From Chryseobacterium binzhouense (GTDB lineage Bacteria > Bacteroidota > Bacteroidia > Flavobacteriales > Weeksellaceae), in assembly GCF_007474545.1 (NCBI RefSeq), contig NZ_VKOG01000007.1:1-64000 (forward strand): a stretch of 64,000 bases of DNA, in the 5' to 3' direction. Below the pieces are notes generated by a model that ran no database searches, was not told the origin of the DNA, and saw only the letters and a program-made list of their open reading frames with translations. The first letter of the stretch is position 1. Each line of letters opens with the position of its first letter. The position numbers and the translations under genes are program-made. Below are positions 1-7,298 of the stretch, one piece after another.

Positions 1-418
1 TTTTTCCACTAAATCCCATTTCGTATACAGTATGCTGAAAATTATATCCGTAAGGATCTGCGTTATCGTCAGCATTCTGAAAACTGTCATAGAGAATATT
101 TCCCTGTCCATCTTTTATCCTGATTTTTCCCATTAGCTTATCCCATTTTCTGTCATCATCACCAAAGTCTATTTTTTTCTCCAGTTTTAGCTCTATTTGT
201 TTACCTTCAAATGTTCCTTTCCAGGTTCCTTCATAAGTATTAAGGCGGTTATCTACATCTTTTACATATTTCGCGCTTTGCAAGTCGGGGCATCCTTCTG
301 TAGCTCGATTAGGCCTGTTACCGCATTCTTCCATTTGTTGTAGAGATATAGATTGTGATTTACAGGAATAAGATACAATTAGCAATAAGACGACACATAA
401 TTTAATTATATTTTTCAT
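1..418 (-). CDS. DUF6705-like small lipoprotein (partial, runs off left edge)
   Basis: The frame opens with an ATG at 418 on the minus strand and stays open to the window edge, giving about 139 residues. The N-terminus is a hydrophobic signal ending in a lipobox (VSYS followed by Cys, then KSQS), so the product is probably an outer-membrane or periplasmic lipoprotein. The middle holds YEGTWKG, an alternating hydrophobic strand and an ILYDSF segment, which align with DYVGTWKA and VLFDN in the proteins at 2785-5160. All therefore seem to be one family, which I believe is the uncharacterised DUF6705 group. It follows cassette A at 440-1240 directly, as the other members follow cassette B and the main lipoprotein gene. 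Function is unknown; a partner or immunity role is inference from position only. Confidence 0.7.
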   Translation of the reverse strand, partial: MKNIIKLCVVLLLIVSYSCKSQSISLQQMEECGNRPNRATEGCPDLQSAKYVKDVDNRLNTYEGTWKGTFEGKQIELKLEKKIDFGDDDRKWDKLMGKIRIKDGQGNILYDSFQNADDNADPYGYNFQHTVYEMGFSGK

Positions 419-439
419 TTTTTAAATATTTATATTATA

Positions 440-1240
440 TTAATTTCCGCATTCGATAGGTTCTGCATTTGTTTGTGTGGTATTGAGCTTGTATTCAGAT
501 ACCTTTCCGTTTGGTTTTACTTTATACAAGGAGACACCTTGTATTAACATTTTATTTTTCATAAATAATAAAAGATTAGTTTCATTATCTCTATCAAAAT
601 ATTTATCAAAATAATTCTTATATTCTACCCTCCAATATTCCGTATCAAACCCCATTTTAATATCAGCTGCTGTTCCGGTAAATTTGATGACATAGGTACC
701 GTCGCTGGAAAGCATGAATCCTTCAGGTGTAAGATCAGAAGTCGTTTTATCATTCACATGCACATGGGTATACCCTTTTGTATTCTGGTCGAAAGTTATC
801 GTTAACACATCGGACTTGTTGTTTGCGGAAGGAAGCAAATCTACAAATGTCCCATCTTTATTTTCGCTGAAACCAGTCTCTTTTTTTAAATTGAAATTAT
901 AATTTTTGTTGATGGTTGCTACCTTGTTTTTATAATTTTCATTAGCAAACTGAGCTTTTACCTTACTGCATGGAGAATTTGGATTAGGAAACTCTATCAC
1001 CGTAGGAATACCTTCACATCCACCTTCGGCAATACCGCCGATAGGATCTACAGGCTGGATAGCTACACCGTTGCCGTTGCAGGGTTCCGGCTCAGGAGTC
1101 GGGTTTTCTGCAGGACAGGAGGAGCAGTCACCACCTCCGCTGTTGGTTCCGCCTCCGGGACCTGCCCACCATCCATTATCTATGGGTGCCTCTGCGATGC
1201 TCTTGCATTGTAAACTAATAACTACTTCCCAAAGCCTTAT
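440..1240 (-). pseudogene. Cassette A: start-less C-terminal copy of the polymorphic lipoprotein gene
   Basis: The open frame runs from just after a TAA at 1241-1243 to a stop at 440, but it has no ATG, so it cannot start like a normal gene. Its first part (987-1210) repeats positions 5871-6094 of the full gene over 224 bp with about a dozen differences, including the Gly-rich and Pro-Glu-rich linker (PAENPTPEPEPC, GGIAEGGCEGIPTVIEF). After the linker the sequence is different: about 180 residues with a THVHVND motif and no clear SxxD partner. It looks like a displaced, probably silent C-terminal module that could be joined to the full gene by recombination through the linker. A lipoprotein gene (1-418) follows it. 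Expression from the GTG at 1000 cannot be excluded but I see no evidence for it. Confidence 0.75.
987..1210 (-). repeat. 224-bp linker repeat, copy A
   Basis: Nearly identical to 5871-6094 in the full lipoprotein gene and, over its downstream 140 bp, to 2571-2713. In the part shared by all three, copies A and B differ at two positions that I could count and resemble each other more than the full gene. Similarity ends abruptly at both borders. Confidence 0.9.
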
Positions 1241-1247
1241 TTAAAAA

Positions 1248-1272
1248 GTAAAAAAACCTCTTTTTAGAGGTT
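1248..1272 (-). terminator. Rho-independent terminator between cassette A and the lipoprotein gene
   Basis: A 7-bp stem (AACCTCT/AGAGGTT) with a 4-base loop is followed on the minus strand by a run of six T. It lies just after the stop of the lipoprotein gene 1279-1857 and before cassette A, so transcription from upstream should stop before the cassette. Confidence 0.85.
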
Positions 1273-1278
1273 CTCATT

Positions 1279-1857
1279 TTACTGCTTCGTAAAAATCATA
1301 TCTAAGGGAAATGTGGTTCCCGACTGATAATAAATCGTTCCAGTTCTAGGTCGAGGATATGTATTTTCTCCTATTTTACCTGTAAACTTCATTTGAGTTG
1401 GAGATAATTTTTCAAGCTTCACCTCGTAACTCGTTCCTCTAAAAACATCTTGAAAAAGGGAGCTATCTAGCTTCCCATTACAAAGAATATCAAAACTAAC
1501 GTTTAAACCATAATCCAAATTAAGATTGTCACCTGATGTATTAACAACAATGATCCCATTTTCTTTATATATATAATATCCAACTAATCTGTCTTCAAAG
1601 TAATTATCACTACCATAATTATTAATATGATATTTAGTCTGTTTTAATAATGTCAAAAACATTTCTTTGTTTCCTTCTGCCCATTTCCAAGTTCCAATAT
1701 ATGGTTCATAAATATTACTTATATCCTTCAAATATAAGCTTCCATTACTCCTGTTTAATGGTGCATGATTACATCTGTTAACAATATCTATAATATTCGT
1801 TTGAGATTTACAACTGATCATTATCAGTAAAATTATCAATAAAAATATTCTGTTCAT
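1279..1857 (-). CDS. DUF6705-like small lipoprotein downstream of cassette B
   Basis: A 192-residue protein with a classical lipoprotein signal (LLIMIS before Cys17, then KSQ). The motif YIGTWKWAEGN and the ending IFTKQ match YVGTWKAS and IFVKQ in the four tandem proteins at 2785-5160, so it belongs to the same small family (DUF6705-like by my reading). It starts 18 bases after the stop of cassette B and is closed by a hairpin terminator at 1248-1272, so B and this gene form one unit. The lipobox distinguishes it from the four tandem paralogues, which have ordinary signal peptides. Its role is unknown. By analogy with toxin-immunity modules it could be the cognate partner of cassette B, which is inference only. 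Confidence 0.8.
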   Translation of the reverse strand: MNRIFLLIILLIMISCKSQTNIIDIVNRCNHAPLNRSNGSLYLKDISNIYEPYIGTWKWAEGNKEMFLTLLKQTKYHINNYGSDNYFEDRLVGYYIYKENGIIVVNTSGDNLNLDYGLNVSFDILCNGKLDSSLFQDVFRGTSYEVKLEKLSPTQMKFTGKIGENTYPRPRTGTIYYQSGTTFPLDMIFTKQ

Positions 1858-1875
1858 TTTATCTTTTTTTTATAG

Positions 1876-2736
1876 TTACAAAGGGCAATTTTCTTTGCTT
1901 ACATTTCCATTAGAATCTATATTCAGTTTACCCCATCCGTCAGCATCTTTTCTATATAAATGTATTGAATTTCCACTACCAGCTTCAGGGTCATCAATTA
2001 CGCTCATAAAAAGTTTTTCAGCTCTTGTTTGATTGTAAGGCTGCTCATCCTGACCACAATCTTTAAACATTTTTTTGACTTTATCCTTTGCTATATTTTT
2101 CTGTACTGTAGTAGTCGTAGCTGTACCGATATTCATACCTGCAAACAATGCATCAAGAGCGGTGGTGTCATTTATTTTCAAGGCATAAGTTGTTCCGTTA
2201 AAATTAACCAAATAAGAAACAAATACCTGTTTTCTATTTGGATACAAAAATTTATACGAATCATAAATATTCACAATATCTCCAAAAGCAAATATAGGAA
2301 TAGTATCTGGAGGGTGATTATGTGCATCTGCTATGTCATTATTAGTTCCTACACCCGAGACACCAATAAATCCGGTACCTGATGTTGCCGACACATATGT
2401 ACTGTATATAAGCTCACCACTAGGTTCTTCTTTTGTAACTACCACCATTGTTTCATGTTTATCAGGATTTGCCTTAGTAACAAGTGTTCTTAAGCTGTCT
2501 ATTTTATGTTTAAGTTCTGGAATAGCATCATTATTTTTTAATATTTGACAAGGAGTTTCAGATGGATTAAACTCTATCACCGTAGGAATTCCTTCACATC
2601 CACCTTCGGCAATACCGCCGATAGGATCTACAGGCTGGATAGCTACACCGTTGCCGTTGCAGGGTTCCGGCTCAGGAGTCGGGTTTTCTGCAGGACACGA
2701 GGAGCAGTCACCATCAACGTGGTAGAAATTATACCT
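1876..2736 (-). pseudogene. Cassette B: start-less C-terminal copy of the polymorphic lipoprotein gene
   Basis: The frame is open from after a TAA at 2737-2739 to a stop at 1876, with no ATG in frame in the first part. Positions 2571-2713 repeat the Pro-Glu and Gly linker of the full gene almost exactly. Upstream of that the similarity breaks within a few bases, leaving a short unrelated lead (YNFYHVDGD). The unique part, about 220 residues, contains ADAHNHPPD followed by FGDI. This resembles the HxHP...D core of JAMM/JAB metallopeptidase-type domains with the usual Ser replaced. It is preceded by a terminator (2757-2778) and followed by a lipoprotein gene (1279-1857). I read it as a stored C-terminal module, not an independently expressed gene. 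Start at the in-frame GTG 2580 is possible but unsupported. Confidence 0.75.
2571..2713 (-). repeat. Linker repeat, copy B (shorter, about 143 bp)
   Basis: Matches 991-1133 of copy A with two differences seen by eye, and the corresponding part of the full gene with a few more. It lacks the upstream 80 bp found in the other two copies. Confidence 0.9.
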
Positions 2737-2756
2737 TTACTTTTTATTACAAAGCA

Positions 2757-2778
2757 AAAAACCTCTTAAAGAGGTTTT
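2757..2778 (-). terminator. Rho-independent terminator after the tandem paralogues
   Basis: Stem AAACCTCTT/AAGAGGTTT with a very small loop, followed on the minus strand by TTTTTG. The stem is almost the same sequence as the terminator at 1248-1272. It closes the transcription unit that contains the four tandem genes and separates it from cassette B. Confidence 0.85.
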
Positions 2779-2784
2779 GAGTAT

Positions 2785-3378
2785 TTACTGCTTCACAAAT
2801 ATAGCGGCTTTAGGCAAAGGATTAGGCAGCTGATCAGGAGGATAATTGTAGAAGAAACAGTCTGAATCCAGCCACTCATATTTATTCTGAAAATAATTCC
2901 ACTGCAACTCGGTTTTTGCCAGATTATTAAAGTTTATTCTTACTTCTCCTGAGGTATCGCATAAATCAGGATCTAAGTATACAAAACCATACCTGTCATC
3001 TGCTTTTCTAAAATTCAGTCCTTCAATTTTAGCTTGTTCGTCTGATAGTAAAGTATTGTCAAAAAGAACTGCCCCATTAATATCTAAAGTTTTAAATTTG
3101 ATTATTAAAAAGTCTCTATTAAACTTAAAGACATTATCATATTTATTTGTAATCTTTTTTATGTAAATAAATATGGTTTTACTGTCCCAGCTTGCCTTCC
3201 AAGTTCCTATATAATCATTTAGTTCATTGTTGGTATCTTTTCTATAGTAACATTGATTCTCAGGAATATCTGTAGTTACAGATCTTAAAGGAATCTCTGT
3301 AAAAACGGTACAGGCTTGCTGGGAAAAAACAAAACCGTACAATGCTAATAACAATATAATCAAAAATCTTTTCAACAT
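2785..3378 (-). CDS. Secreted DUF6705-like protein, tandem copy 4
   Basis: 197 residues with a Sec signal peptide (MLKRFLIILLLALYGFVFS, then QQ). It contains DYIGTWKASWDSKT and ends with the PPDQLPNPLPKAAIFVKQ tail shared by all four tandem copies. It is the last gene of the row and sits directly before a hairpin terminator. Its central part (residues about 70-130) differs most from its neighbours, while the last 60 residues are almost the same in all copies. This points to duplication followed by divergence of the core and conservation or gene conversion of the tail. Function unknown. Confidence 0.85.
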   Translation of the reverse strand: MLKRFLIILLLALYGFVFSQQACTVFTEIPLRSVTTDIPENQCYYRKDTNNELNDYIGTWKASWDSKTIFIYIKKITNKYDNVFKFNRDFLIIKFKTLDINGAVLFDNTLLSDEQAKIEGLNFRKADDRYGFVYLDPDLCDTSGEVRINFNNLAKTELQWNYFQNKYEWLDSDCFFYNYPPDQLPNPLPKAAIFVKQ

Positions 3379-3380
3379 CT

Positions 3381-3971
3381 TTACTGCTTCACAAATATAG
3401 CGGCTTTAGGCAAAGGATTAGGCAGCTGATCAGGAGGATAATTGTAGAAGAAGCAGTCTGAATCCAGCCACTCATATTTATTCTGAAAATAATTCCACTG
3501 CAGCTGGGTTTTTGTAGGATTATTAAAGTTTATCCTTATATTTCCGCTTGTGTAGCACAAGTCTGGATCTATGTAGGTAAGAGAGTATCTATCATCGGCT
3601 TTACCAAACATCAATCCATATATTTTAACCTGAGCATCTGGTAAATAGGTATTATCGAAAAGAACTGTTCCGTTATTGGTTATGGTCTTAAATTTTATTA
3701 CCAGATTATCTACATAGTATTCACCAGTCCAATCATAATGCTTTACTTGTTTTGTAATATACACATAGATTGTTCTGTCATTCCAGTTTGCTTTCCAAGT
3801 TCCTACATAATCGTTCAGCTCATTTTGAGTGTCTTTCAAATAATAGCATTCGTTTTGAGGTATGGTCGTAAATGTTCTTAAAGAAACCTCTGTAAACATT
3901 AAACAGGTTTGTTGAGAAAAAACAAAACTGTATAATGTTAAAAACAATATAATTAAAAATCTTTTCAACAT
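3381..3971 (-). CDS. Secreted DUF6705-like protein, tandem copy 3
   Basis: 196 residues. It has the same MLKRFLIIL-type signal peptide as copies 2 and 4. The segment after it (LMFTEVSLRTFTTIPQNECYYLKD) is of the copy 1 type, so this gene looks like a mosaic of the two types. The stop of the previous gene and this ATG are separated by two bases (TAA AG ATG), so translation is probably coupled along the row. The protein is predicted to be exported; no enzyme motif is visible. Confidence 0.85.
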   Translation of the reverse strand: MLKRFLIILFLTLYSFVFSQQTCLMFTEVSLRTFTTIPQNECYYLKDTQNELNDYVGTWKANWNDRTIYVYITKQVKHYDWTGEYYVDNLVIKFKTITNNGTVLFDNTYLPDAQVKIYGLMFGKADDRYSLTYIDPDLCYTSGNIRINFNNPTKTQLQWNYFQNKYEWLDSDCFFYNYPPDQLPNPLPKAAIFVKQ

Positions 3972-3973
3972 CT

Positions 3974-4567
3974 TTACTGCTTCACAAATATAGCGGCTTT
4001 AGGCAAAGGATTAGGTAGCTGATCAGGAGGATAATTGTAGAAGAAGCAGTCTGAATCCAGCCACTCATATTTATCCTGTAAATAATTCCACTGTAACTCA
4101 GTTTTTGCCAGATTATTAAAGTTTATTCTTACTTCTCCTGAGGTATCGCATAAATCAAAATCTATATATACAAAACCATATCTGTCATCTGCTTTTCGGA
4201 ATCCTAAACCATAAATTTTTACCTGATCATCTGGTAAAGATGTGTTATCAAAAAGAACGGTTCCGTTATTAGCTACGGTTTTGAATCGTATTATTAAATT
4301 ATCTGAATAATATTGACTTACCCAACTATAATATTTTATTCTTTTTGCTATATATGCATAAATTGTTCTATCATTCCAGCTTGCCTTCCAAGTTCCTACA
4401 TAATCGTTCAGCTCATTGTTAGTGTCTTTCAAATAATAACATTGATTCTCAGGAATATCTGTATTTACAGATCTTAAGGGAATCTCCGTAAAAACGGTAC
4501 AGGCTTGCTGGGAAAAAACTAAACCGTACAATGCTAATAACAATATAATCAAAAATCTTTCCAACAT
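3974..4567 (-). CDS. Secreted DUF6705-like protein, tandem copy 2
   Basis: 197 residues with a signal peptide (MLERFLIILLLALYGLVFS). Mature N-terminus QQACTVFTEIPLRSVNTDIPE matches copy 4, while the core (NDRTIYAYIAKRIKYYSW) matches copies 1 and 3. It has the same conserved tail ending IFVKQ and the same two-base spacing to both neighbours. The four copies form one operon-like row behind the full lipoprotein gene. No function can be assigned from the sequence. Confidence 0.85.
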   Translation of the reverse strand: MLERFLIILLLALYGLVFSQQACTVFTEIPLRSVNTDIPENQCYYLKDTNNELNDYVGTWKASWNDRTIYAYIAKRIKYYSWVSQYYSDNLIIRFKTVANNGTVLFDNTSLPDDQVKIYGLGFRKADDRYGFVYIDFDLCDTSGEVRINFNNLAKTELQWNYLQDKYEWLDSDCFFYNYPPDQLPNPLPKAAIFVKQ

Positions 4568-4569
4568 CT

Positions 4570-5160
4570 TTACTGCTTCACAAATATTGCGGCTTTAGGC
4601 AAAGGATTAGGCAGCTGATCAGGAGGATAATTGTAGAAAAAACAGTCTGAATCCAGCCACTCATATTTATTCTGAAAATAATTCCACTGCAGCTGGGTTT
4701 TTGTAGGATTATTAAAGTTTATTCGTACTTCCCCTGATGTGTCGCATAAATCAAAATCTATATATACAAAACCATACCTATCATCGGCTTTTCTGAATTT
4801 TAGCCCCTCAATTTTCACCTGAGAATCCGGTAATGAGGTATTATCGAAAAGAACCGTTCCGTTATTGGCTATGGTTTTGAATCGGATTACTAAATTATCT
4901 GAATAATATTTTCCAACCCACTCATAAAACTTTACTCGCTTAGTTATATAAATATAGATTGTTCTGTCATTCCAACTTGCTTTCCAAGTTCCTACATAAT
5001 CGTTCAGCTCATTTTGAGTGTCTTTCAAATAATAGCATTCGTTTTGAGGTATGGTCGTAAATGTTCTCAAAGGAACTTCTGTAAATGTTGAGCAGGTTTG
5101 CTGGGCAAAAGCCAAATAAAAAAGATTGGATAGTAACAGTATAGTGAATATTTTTTTCAT
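4570..5160 (-). CDS. Secreted DUF6705-like protein, tandem copy 1
   Basis: 196 residues. Its signal peptide (MKKIFTILLLSNLFYLAFA, then QQ) is unrelated to that of the other three copies, whereas the rest of the protein is very similar to them. It starts 19 bases after the stop of the full lipoprotein gene, so it is the first partner gene of the expressed unit. It contains the family motif DYVGTWKASWNDRTIY and the conserved Pro-rich tail. The exchange of the signal peptide suggests copies 2-4 arose by duplication and were joined to another leader, or the reverse. Confidence 0.85.
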   Translation of the reverse strand: MKKIFTILLLSNLFYLAFAQQTCSTFTEVPLRTFTTIPQNECYYLKDTQNELNDYVGTWKASWNDRTIYIYITKRVKFYEWVGKYYSDNLVIRFKTIANNGTVLFDNTSLPDSQVKIEGLKFRKADDRYGFVYIDFDLCDTSGEVRINFNNPTKTQLQWNYFQNKYEWLDSDCFFYNYPPDQLPNPLPKAAIFVKQ

Positions 5161-5179
5161 AATGTATCAATTAAGGTTA

Positions 5180-6358
5180 TTATTTTTTAGGACAAGGGAT
5201 GGAGATAGCTTTTTTCGTAGCTAAATCATAATCTAATTTGGATGCAGAATTTTCTGTGATCTCAAACACATCCAGCCCGTCTACCTGTACCACTTCCTTC
5301 AAAAACTGTGCAAACACACGTTTAACATTCTCTGAATCCATTTGTTGGTTGTACTCAAGATTTTGAAACTCTCGTTCATACCAATTCTTCCACCTTGCAA
5401 AATCAGCTCCTGTCACATTACTTGGCCAATTGGTACCGTTATACTTAAACATATAACTTCCCCAGTCGGTCATGGTCACAAAATATCCTTTAGAATAGCT
5501 GCCTTTATAAAGATTTGCCTGCTTGATAATGATATGAAAAAATTCGTACAGATCCTTAGGCGAAGGTGCTTTTACATTAACTTTAGTTCCAAATGTAGGA
5601 TTATCGTTACAGTTAATATTATTGTGAATATGGAAAAGCCCGGTAATGCCATTTTTATTGGCAGGTAGTGTAAGATGAGTTGTACACGCCTGGTTACTCA
5701 TCGGCACAAAAGAAGATGCTGATCCCGATCCAACCGGCGGAGTCCTTTCAAACGCTCCTTTTTCATTGATACTGTTATAATTGGCAGGAGTATTAAGATT
5801 GATAAACTGCTGTTTAAAAAAAGGATCACTAAGATCTGCTTTTGCGTTTTCACAAGCTTCATCTGGAAGAGGAAACTCAATCACAGTAGGAATTCCTTCA
5901 CAACCACCTTCGGCAATACCGCCGATAGGATCTACAGGCTGAATAGAAACCCCGTTACCATTGCAGGGTTCCGGCTCAGGAGTCGGGTTTTCTGCAGGAC
6001 AAGAGGAGCAGTCACCACCTCCGCTGTTGGTTCCGCCTCCGGGACCTGCCCACCATCCATTATCTGTGGGTGCTTCTGCGATACTCTTGCATTGCAGATA
6101 ATATTCTTTTATAGGTTTAGATTTTACTTTTGCACTACATGCATTGCTGCCTTCGCCATTAAAATGCGCATTTTCACTGCATGCTGTATACCCCACGATA
6201 TACGACTGCCACACACAGCTTTGGTTAGATTTAGCTCCCAGCGGATTGTATACCGTACCATCCAAAAGCGTCACCGTTGTTTTATCCTGGGTATCTACAT
6301 ATTCACCCGACATCATCATCTGCTTTTCCTGAGGCGTCAGATTATAGCTGATGAGCAT
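5180..6358 (-). CDS. Polymorphic surface lipoprotein, linker and JAMM-like C-terminal part (second half of split gene)
   Basis: 392 residues from ATG 6358. Residues 1-110 continue the conserved N-terminal region encoded by 6342-6767 in the other frame. Residues about 110-165 form a Gly-, Pro- and Glu-rich linker with Cys pairs (CSSCPAENPTPEPEPC), and from about 170 a specific C-terminal domain follows. That domain has GLFHIHNN (His243, His245) and SPKD (Ser266, Asp269), an HxH...SxxD layout like that of JAMM/JAB zinc peptidases; true family membership needs structure prediction. Two start-less copies of the linker with different C-termini lie downstream (440-1240, 1876-2736). The start overlaps the end of the first half by 17 bases. 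A one-base change would fuse the halves, so independent translation from ATG 6358 is doubtful unless coupled. Confidence 0.75.
   Translation of the reverse strand: MLISYNLTPQEKQMMMSGEYVDTQDKTTVTLLDGTVYNPLGAKSNQSCVWQSYIVGYTACSENAHFNGEGSNACSAKVKSKPIKEYYLQCKSIAEAPTDNGWWAGPGGGTNSGGGDCSSCPAENPTPEPEPCNGNGVSIQPVDPIGGIAEGGCEGIPTVIEFPLPDEACENAKADLSDPFFKQQFINLNTPANYNSINEKGAFERTPPVGSGSASSFVPMSNQACTTHLTLPANKNGITGLFHIHNNINCNDNPTFGTKVNVKAPSPKDLYEFFHIIIKQANLYKGSYSKGYFVTMTDWGSYMFKYNGTNWPSNVTGADFARWKNWYEREFQNLEYNQQMDSENVKRVFAQFLKEVVQVDGLDVFEITENSASKLDYDLATKKAISIPCPKK
5871..6094 (-). repeat. 224-bp linker repeat, copy in the full gene
   Basis: This is the parent position of copies A (987-1210) and B (2571-2713). 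It encodes the linker from QCKSIAEAP to VIEF and marks the exact border between the common N-terminal region and the variable C-terminal domain. Confidence 0.9.
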
Positions 6359-6767
6359 TTATTTCTCTATAACTCCCGTCTGTAGCCGGGATCAGTACCA
6401 GATTTTCTATAGGATCTGTCGGTAAAGCATTTTGACGGGTAAGATGAAAAGTGTAGGTGTGAAAGTTGGGACCGTTCTCAATGTACATTACATGATCGGT
6501 ATCAATAGATACTCCATCGGCGTAATTAATTTTCCCTTTGGCATTTTTCTGCGCAAAAGCTTTAATCCCAACCTCTGCTTTTTGAAGCTCAGGTAAAAGC
6601 TTTGTTCTGTGCTTAGATTCGTTAAGGGAAATTCTTTGGGAAGTCAGACGCAAGCCCGTGTTGCCGTGCGCTTCTTCTTCGTTGTGAAATTCTTCGGTGC
6701 GGCAGGAGAATGCCGAGACACCGACCAGGAACATCAGGCAGAGCCTGAGAAATAAATGTTTTTTCAT
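6342..6767 (-). CDS. Polymorphic surface lipoprotein, N-terminal half (frameshifted)
   Basis: A lipoprotein signal (LVGVSAFS before Cys) is followed by about 115 residues including DTDHVMYIENGPNFHTYTFHL and a PIENLVLIP segment. These recall the common N-terminal region of large Flavobacteriia paralogue families of unknown function. I prefer the start at 6767 (MKKHLF) over 6773 because it gives the usual Lys-Lys signal start. The frame ends with SYREINAHQL and a stop, while the next frame (ATG 6358) continues with LISYNLTPQEKQ, as expected for the same protein. Removal of one base near 6352-6362 would restore one reading frame. This is a true frameshift, a sequencing error, or translational coupling. 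A weak TATCTTTA -7-like element lies upstream. Confidence 0.7.
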   Translation of the reverse strand: MKKHLFLRLCLMFLVGVSAFSCRTEEFHNEEEAHGNTGLRLTSQRISLNESKHRTKLLPELQKAEVGIKAFAQKNAKGKINYADGVSIDTDHVMYIENGPNFHTYTFHLTRQNALPTDPIENLVLIPATDGSYREINAHQL

Positions 6768-6881
6768 AAGCATTTATGTTTTAATGGTTTAAAGATATAA
6801 ATTTTTCTGAAACAAAAATGAAAAAAAACATCTGAAAAACAATGCCCTGTTTTTGATGCATCATTATTTTAATAAAAAAAT

Positions 6882-6908: not shown

Positions 6909-7298
6909 ATGAATACAACCATTGGAAAAAGAATACGAACCTTCAGAGAAAACAAAGGTTTCTCGCAGGAAGAACTGGCAGAAAAACTGCACATTTCACG
7001 GTCTACGTATCAAAGGATAGAAAACGGTGAAACCAACTCCTGGATCAACCATATCGAAAATATCTGCCATTCTTTGGAGGTAAATCTGGATGATATTTTG
7101 AAGCCGGAAGAAGGATATACCCAGATAAATAAAGAAAATTCAACCAATGAAAATTCCAGCAACAATATGATTCAAAATCAAACAAATAATTACAATATTT
7201 CAGAAAAAATGCTGGAAAATCTTTATGACACCATTGCTTCTCTTAAAGAAGAGAACAGATTGTTAAAAGAAGAAATCAATCTTTTAAAATCAAAATAA
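6909..7298 (+). CDS. XRE-family helix-turn-helix regulator with C-terminal coiled coil
   Basis: 129 residues. Residues about 5-62 form a Cro/C1-type helix-turn-helix (IRTFRENKGFSQEELAEKLHISRSTYQRIENGE). Then comes a long Asn/Ser-rich stretch, and residues about 98-129 form a short coiled coil (LYDTIASLKEENRLLKEEIN), typical of dimerising regulators of this build. It is transcribed away from the polymorphic lipoprotein locus with 141 bases between the starts, so it may control that locus or itself. Target sites cannot be named from the sequence. Confidence 0.9.
   Translation: MNTTIGKRIRTFRENKGFSQEELAEKLHISRSTYQRIENGETNSWINHIENICHSLEVNLDDILKPEEGYTQINKENSTNENSSNNMIQNQTNNYNISEKMLENLYDTIASLKEENRLLKEEINLLKSK

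Follow-up and report, generated by a model that had tools for sequence, protein, structure and literature searches.

Four described systems come closest to the locus reported here, which occupies the first part of a 64,000-nucleotide stretch of Chryseobacterium binzhouense (Weeksellaceae) DNA that we call the window (G000:C14:1-64000, where G000 is the genome, of 3.61 Mb in 16 contigs) and which consists of a surface-lipoprotein-like gene, start-less cassettes with related C-terminal modules and a set of small partner genes. Tox-JAB-1 of Bacteroidetes has a JAB/JAMM toxin tip with NxxxE, HxH, S and D residues and is paired with Imm65, which has a signal peptide and a lipobox and is the only apparent lipoprotein in that immunity collection; a nuclease action was proposed for Tox-JAB-1 (PMC3482391). 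The SitA/SitI system of myxobacteria consists of an outer-membrane lipoprotein toxin with an N-terminal escort, drawn from several non-homologous escort families, an exchangeable tip and a downstream immunity gene (PMC5562445, PMC8546572), and in 2017 its authors knew of no earlier polymorphic toxin that was a lipoprotein in its own right (PMC5562445). The lipocone superfamily paper (eLife 2025, PMC12419801) describes proteins that have a lipobox, a cystatin-like domain and various tips, together with transmembrane or lipoprotein immunity proteins, and the TANFOR polymorphic toxins of Bacteroidetes carry AHH and other tips with downstream immunity (PMC7073777). We conclude from the comparisons below that the window very probably holds a polymorphic toxin/immunity locus of Flavobacteriia, with exchangeable tips and cognate immunity genes.

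Like Tox-JAB-1/Imm65, the present locus combines a JAMM tip in Bacteroidetes with a lipobox and signal peptide on putative immunity proteins. However, the Tox-JAB-1 tip lies behind RHS repeats, whereas the tips here lie behind a small lipoprotein escort without an RHS match, and the partner family is DUF6705 (PF20448) in place of Imm65, with which the pair is compared by description. The Pfam model Toxin-JAB1 (PF15659) does not recognize the present tips: it has no match at an E-value of 1 in genome G000 and is absent from the Pfam matches of 47 tips. The likeness to SitA/SitI (lipoprotein toxin, exchangeable tip, downstream immunity) is one of architecture as read from the sequence; SitA tips are nucleases for the cytoplasm, transferred by TraA-dependent outer-membrane exchange, whereas those described here are mostly JAMM-like and have exported partners. 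In PMC12419801 the tips named are Min-Wnt, CapCone-1, colicin M-like, START-like, papain-like and VanY-like, JAB does not occur in the text, and the most widespread immunity protein is BamE-like, unlike the DUF6705 found here. TANFOR toxins resemble the present family in being polymorphic toxins of Bacteroidetes with AHH tips and downstream immunity, but they are large proteins and proposed substrates of the type IX secretion system, and the words lipoprotein, JAB and Chryseobacterium do not occur in the text of PMC7073777. The initial annotation, made from the sequence alone, had supposed that JAMM-like modules with DUF6705-like partners would be a combination not known as a described system; we found no description of DUF6705 or of a JAMM/DUF6705 pair in the literature searched, which largely left subscription journals and preprints outside.

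On the minus strand, the order is the main lipoprotein gene (6773-5180), four DUF6705 partner genes, a terminator, the start-less cassette B with one partner, a second terminator, and the start-less cassette A with one partner, as the initial annotation had it. Its HxH motifs are likewise present (HIH in the main gene, HNH in cassette B, HVH in cassette A), but its full gene proved not to be one open frame. A first piece of 143 residues (6342..6773), with the signal peptide, the lipobox CRTEE and the first half of the escort, stops at a frame change near 6350, and a second piece of 392 residues (5180..6358) has the rest of the escort, a Gly/Pro hinge (5861..6103, which DNA matches within the genome show to be common to cassettes A and B and to paralogues) and the JAMM-like C-terminal tip CT1 (5180..5863; HIH, SPKD). 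Behind it stand the putative immunity genes partner 1 (4570..5160), detected by Pfam and by a genome profile search, and partners 2 (3974..4567), 3 (3381..3971) and 4 (2785..3378), detected by the profile search. Cassette B (1876..2736) comprises a hinge remnant (2569-2713) and a JAMM-like tip (HNHPP) and is followed by a partner with the lipobox ISCKSQ (1279..1857); cassette A (440..1240) comprises a hinge remnant (977-1220) and a JAMM-like tip with an internal deletion and is followed by a partner (2..418) that is truncated, contig C14 ending at the first base of the window. Both of these partners were found by Pfam and by the profile search. Pfam scans of three window partners gave DUF6705 with E-values of 1e-10 to 2.5e-20, and all 16 matches to this family in genome G000, six of them in the window, exceed the Pfam cut-off, so that every C-terminal module in the window is indeed followed by a member of one small family. 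The end of contig C2, which bears more DUF6705 genes and one more start-less JAMM cassette, is probably the continuation of this array.

The escort is a lipoprotein module of about 260 residues ahead of the tip, for which a Pfam scan gave no convincing match and no RHS match. It occurs at five places in genome G000, namely in the window, on C10, on C11 and twice on C1. Over escort and hinge, DNA identity to the main gene is 93% for the C10 copy and 89% for the C11 copy, and these matches end at query positions 903 and 915, respectively, which is the hinge end; six of the eight non-self DNA matches to the main gene stop within query positions 895-915, at about 5859-5879 of the window, the point from which the tips differ. 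The two C1 matches that cover the escort end earlier, inside it (398 and 498), and the one at C1:581k resumes with a hinge piece up to 904. Behind the hinge lie a relative of the cassette A module on C10, a relative of the cassette B module on C11 and another JAMM tip at C1:581k, while the copy at C1:90k has an unrelated tip in a gene that is broken too. This fifth copy (L029:2498-4571) has its frame break in the linker, and its unnamed tip is followed by two tandem, similar lipoproteins that are not DUF6705 and then by a hydrophobic protein.

Beyond this genome, 62 of the 321 genomes from the family (7 of 33 genera) have the N-terminal module. A broader profile, applied to an order-wide sample of 395 genomes, found it in 23, of which seven lie outside the family. 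For the stronger matches, and not for all, the surrounding DNA was fetched, which gave sixty regions; together with the other G000 loci and six loci from a contig scan, all from one C. echinoideorum strain, they supplied 66 genes with a near-complete module. L029 (broken) and L032 (contig end) counted as tipless and the two-piece window gene was not among them, which leaves 64 tips, 52 of them JAMM-like. Ten of the 12 non-JAMM tips were scanned with Pfam: six gave nothing credible, and four were named, as a Tae4 peptidoglycan amidase (4.6e-24), two AHH nucleases (5.1e-5 and 1.8e-6) and a Tox-MPTase3 (1.4e-8). A conserved N-terminal part is thus joined to interchangeable, unrelated C-terminal domains, and that a single N-terminal module carries several established toxin families is a hallmark of polymorphic toxins. 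In the proteins with non-JAMM tips of L082, L083, L086, L094, L101, L103, L113, L116, L117, L119, L120 and L125, we also noticed an extra domain (LSTFFxYVKxLPxDLK...FYxGLKxYYD) between hinge and tip, which was not seen by eye in the JAMM proteins.

The JAMM-like tips retain the metal-site signature of the JAMM/JAB superfamily (Glu, His-x-His, Asp), since E33, H71, H73 and D101 are invariant in 47 of 47 aligned tips, five of the 52 having been left out as near-duplicates or second copies. The best AlphaFold model of CT1 (pLDDT 76.8, pTM 0.80) appears to resemble JAMM/MPN folds, with no Foldseek match below 0.001. The window tips match no named toxin family, searches of PDB sequences with the tip profile and the partner profile found no credible relative, and NCBIfam and PADLOC scans gave nothing convincing; the only DUF4329 match, below cut-off, is in the contig C2 cassette.

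The genes behind the tips follow the tips and not the escort. Behind the 52 JAMM tips, the partner is DUF6705 in 37 cases, a second family (P1) in 11 and a third (P2) in three, and one tip has none (L112); when partners were scanned with Pfam, 34 of 35 matched DUF6705. On a JAMM tree of 56 rows (the 52 tips and four unlabelled other G000 modules), partner labels change five times, the minimum possible, against a shuffled mean of 16.1; the labels of L073 and L088 are wrong on that tree, both being DUF6705, and the P1 clade has a support of 90/79, below the tool's star. In the 37 DUF6705 loci, tip and partner distances are correlated (Mantel r 0.59, p 0.0002), whereas those of escort and partner (r -0.02, p 0.64) and of escort and tip (r 0.06, p 0.13) are not, partner distances having been computed without the first 25 residues; likewise, in a 35-locus set, nearest neighbours agree in 15/35 cases for tip and partner, in 1/35 for escort and partner and in 3/35 for escort and tip. 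As escort and tip are encoded by one gene, plain linkage predicts the opposite, and the moving unit is thus likely to be the tip with its partner, with the break inside the gene. The non-JAMM tips add a curated immunity family, as the AHH tip of L113 is followed by Imm11 (2.3e-13); the partner in L101 has a weak Imm11 match (0.0015), under the cut-off. Position, joint divergence and the Imm11 gene behind one AHH tip all point to a cognate immunity gene directly downstream of the tip. Two further loci fall outside the partner rule: in L120 a DUF6705 gene stands behind a non-JAMM tip, and in L117 none does directly.

The partners of the two AHH tips have no signal-like N-terminus, whereas those of the JAMM tips are exported, which argues that the JAMM tips act outside the cytoplasm and against the nuclease suggestion of PMC3482391; the exported partner, together with the paired Cys seen here, would likewise fit an action at the envelope.

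Cassettes A and B have neither a start nor a signal peptide of their own, and each retains hinge DNA of the main gene far beyond chance: 244 nucleotides at 92% identity (E 2e-95) in cassette A and 145 nucleotides at 93% identity (E 2.7e-56) in cassette B. The start-less nature of both is as initially described; the JAMM domain of cassette A, however, is not intact, for about 40 internal residues that include the Ser-x-x-Asp (SxxD) part of the signature are lacking, whereas cassette B is open. The initial annotation had suggested looking for cassette modules joined to the full N-terminal region elsewhere and had named their absence from all strains as contrary to its proposal; related modules joined in this way exist within the same genome: a relative of the cassette A module, without the deletion, at G000:C10 (L026; 85% over 167 tree columns) and one of the cassette B module at G000:C11 (L027; 72% over 219 tree columns). 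The fused relatives are thus homologues and not recent copies. From a list of 25 partial JAMM frames outside full genes, 13 hinge-bearing start-less cassettes were picked by eye; they lie in seven regions, two of which, the window and L030, may belong to a single locus. Under the adjacency rule, the neighbouring frame is DUF6705-like for 11 of the 13; in L085 such a frame overlaps the cassette by 84 nucleotides and so falls outside the rule, and none was seen at L084:3271. In twelve, hinge DNA matches that of the full gene at the same locus (87-100% identity over 39-150 nucleotides), with a gene of another locus or genome matching as well or better in five of these, and the L030 cassette has no match. 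For seven of the 13, a tip with 50% identity or more is carried by the N-terminal module of a different locus. Stand-alone tip cassettes near a full gene are thus a recurrent feature, and, since shared hinge DNA makes homology available for exchange, we infer recombination as the probable route. In a separate observation, a third piece of hinge-like DNA (L027:4268-4468; G000:C11:200267-200467), 77% identical to the main-gene hinge, was noticed beyond the two C11 partners, on their downstream side; no tip follows it, and it is perhaps what remains of another cassette.

DUF6705 is far more widespread than the escort, occurring in 169 of the 321 genomes. The two are found together in 54 genomes, DUF6705 only in 115, the escort only in eight and neither in 144 (Fisher p 3.4e-10). 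Taken by themselves, the 115 genomes might seem to match the outcome that the initial annotation had named as contrary to its proposal, namely partners without cassettes in most genomes. Yet in twenty regions around strong DUF6705 matches, from 17 of these 115 genomes scored as escort-negative, DUF6705 stands directly behind a JAMM module at 18 of 20 loci; at L159 a JAMM gene is near but not adjacent, and L173 has none. Three of the escort-negative genomes (G030, G056, G178) have weak matches to the escort. The JAMM proteins of these loci are mostly lipoproteins on other N-termini, a few frames being fragments, and the gene orders indicate that DUF6705 belongs with the tips and not with the escort. 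Across L158-L177 (for example L163:8778-10076 and L160:5818-7158) a second lipoprotein N-terminal module precedes the same kind of JAMM tip and then DUF6705; the commonest such N-terminus starts with C[IV]HDE or C[IV]HDD, followed by SKEYxxKSLWKEDE(KY), and further lipoprotein N-termini ahead of a JAMM tip and DUF6705 were seen in L166/L175 and L174.

On the evidence of sequence, the family has a modular architecture, a swap boundary at the hinge end, fused relatives of its cassettes, joint divergence of tips and partners, and toxin domains together with Imm11, whereas we infer toxicity, neutralisation, surface display, transfer to neighbouring cells and the JAMM-tip substrate. In the mechanism that we propose, the main gene product would be secreted, lipid-anchored and probably surface-exposed, with an escort, a Gly/Pro hinge and an exchangeable toxin tip that is presumably a JAMM-type metalloenzyme; the gene behind each tip would be its cognate immunity gene, exported DUF6705 proteins would neutralise most JAMM tips in the periplasm or at the envelope, and homologous recombination in the hinge would place a stored tip with its immunity gene onto the escort, a swap made possible by the hinge DNA that the cassettes share with the full gene. 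As the assembly shows damage in both the main gene and cassette A, the present role of this locus may be to store immunity genes and supply tips, and the open paralogues on C10, C11 and at C1:581k may be the working copies.

A related explanation holds that the locus is a decayed remnant of tandem duplications and broken copies, with spare immunity as its function at most. It is compatible with the toxin/immunity reading and of all alternatives survives best, but we regard it as unlikely: the frame break in the main gene, the deletion in cassette A and the broken escorts in L029, L076, L115, L068 and L080 speak for it, whereas the frames of five window partners are open throughout and that of the sixth as far as it is present, cassette B is open, there are three open paralogues, and polymorphic toxin loci have been described to include stand-alone tip cassettes (PMC3482391). 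In another explanation the JAMM proteins are secreted surface enzymes, nutritional or processing peptidases that DUF6705 restrains or folds until export and that have no interbacterial role. The exported, tip-specific partner and the occurrence of DUF6705 in 169 of 321 genomes speak for it; this explanation is nevertheless improbable, as it accounts neither for the AHH nuclease tips that the same escort bears with Imm11 as a partner, nor for tandem partner arrays, nor for start-less cassettes, most of which keep their partner. Least probable is antigenic variation, with the variable C-terminus as a surface antigen or adhesin, the cassettes as silent gene-conversion donors and the partners as accessory or decoy proteins, for although a surface-lipoprotein-like signal and silent cassettes with common hinge DNA would suit it, the JAMM tips retain invariant catalytic-type residues, Tae4, AHH and Tox-MPTase3 tips sit on the same escort, partner families (Imm11 included) track the tips, and an antigen store has no need of a tip-specific gene behind its cassettes. 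The initial annotation had held antigenic variation to fit as well as toxin/immunity; we judge it much less likely, the toxin/immunity reading being well supported by the known toxin domains and Imm11 on the same N-terminal module and by the joint divergence of tip and partner.

If this polymorphic toxin/immunity reading is right, it gives DUF6705, an uncharacterised family, a testable function and adds a lipoprotein-borne toxin system in Flavobacteriia to the myxobacterial SitA system. JAMM metalloenzymes are otherwise known for ubiquitin-type substrates or as suspected nucleases, and the question of what JAB/JAMM toxin tips target becomes directly testable. A wider proposal, plausible but tentative, is that Bacteroidota may deliver toxins without a dedicated apparatus, by contact or vesicles, through surface lipoproteins on unrelated escorts, with JAMM tips as periplasmic envelope toxins and DUF6705 as an exported, perhaps lipocalin-like immunity family arrayed with silent, hinge-recombining cassettes.

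The lipocalin-like fold is a guess from weak model matches and from a G-x-W motif in DUF6705 that we take to be a lipocalin mark: the AlphaFold model of a partner, built from 11 rows, has a pLDDT of 62.7 and resembles beta-barrels only weakly (best Foldseek E 0.011). Over 300 nucleotides, the DNA of the four tandem partners is 81-87% identical to that of a reference copy, and the spacing is 593-596 nucleotides; these partners have a signal-like N-terminus without a clear lipobox, whereas the other two window partners have a lipobox. These four copies (window 2785-5160) are nearly identical at their C-terminal ends and more variable in mid-protein, a pattern suggestive of homogenisation at one end and diversification elsewhere.

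Upstream of and divergent from the main gene, an XRE-type helix-turn-helix regulator lies on the plus strand (6909..7298), and a relative of it, likewise divergent, is found within 1.3 kb upstream of 38 of the 65 N-terminal-module genes examined. The intrinsic-terminator-like sites on the minus strand, at 2778-2758 on the 3' side of the partner array and at 1275-1252, are two of 11 such sites counted over both strands, where shuffled sequence gives a mean of 4.3. Because the N-terminal module is also broken in other genomes, we asked whether the main gene might undergo phase variation, but set this idea aside: the breaks in the window, L076, L115 and L068 lie at different places and in different sequence surroundings, and no simple repeat is evident. 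Finally, L068 (G148:C1:2829606-2842000) has tandem escort copies without a signal peptide; a JAMM tip and a DUF6705 partner accompany some of them, others are broken, and this run looks like an extended store.

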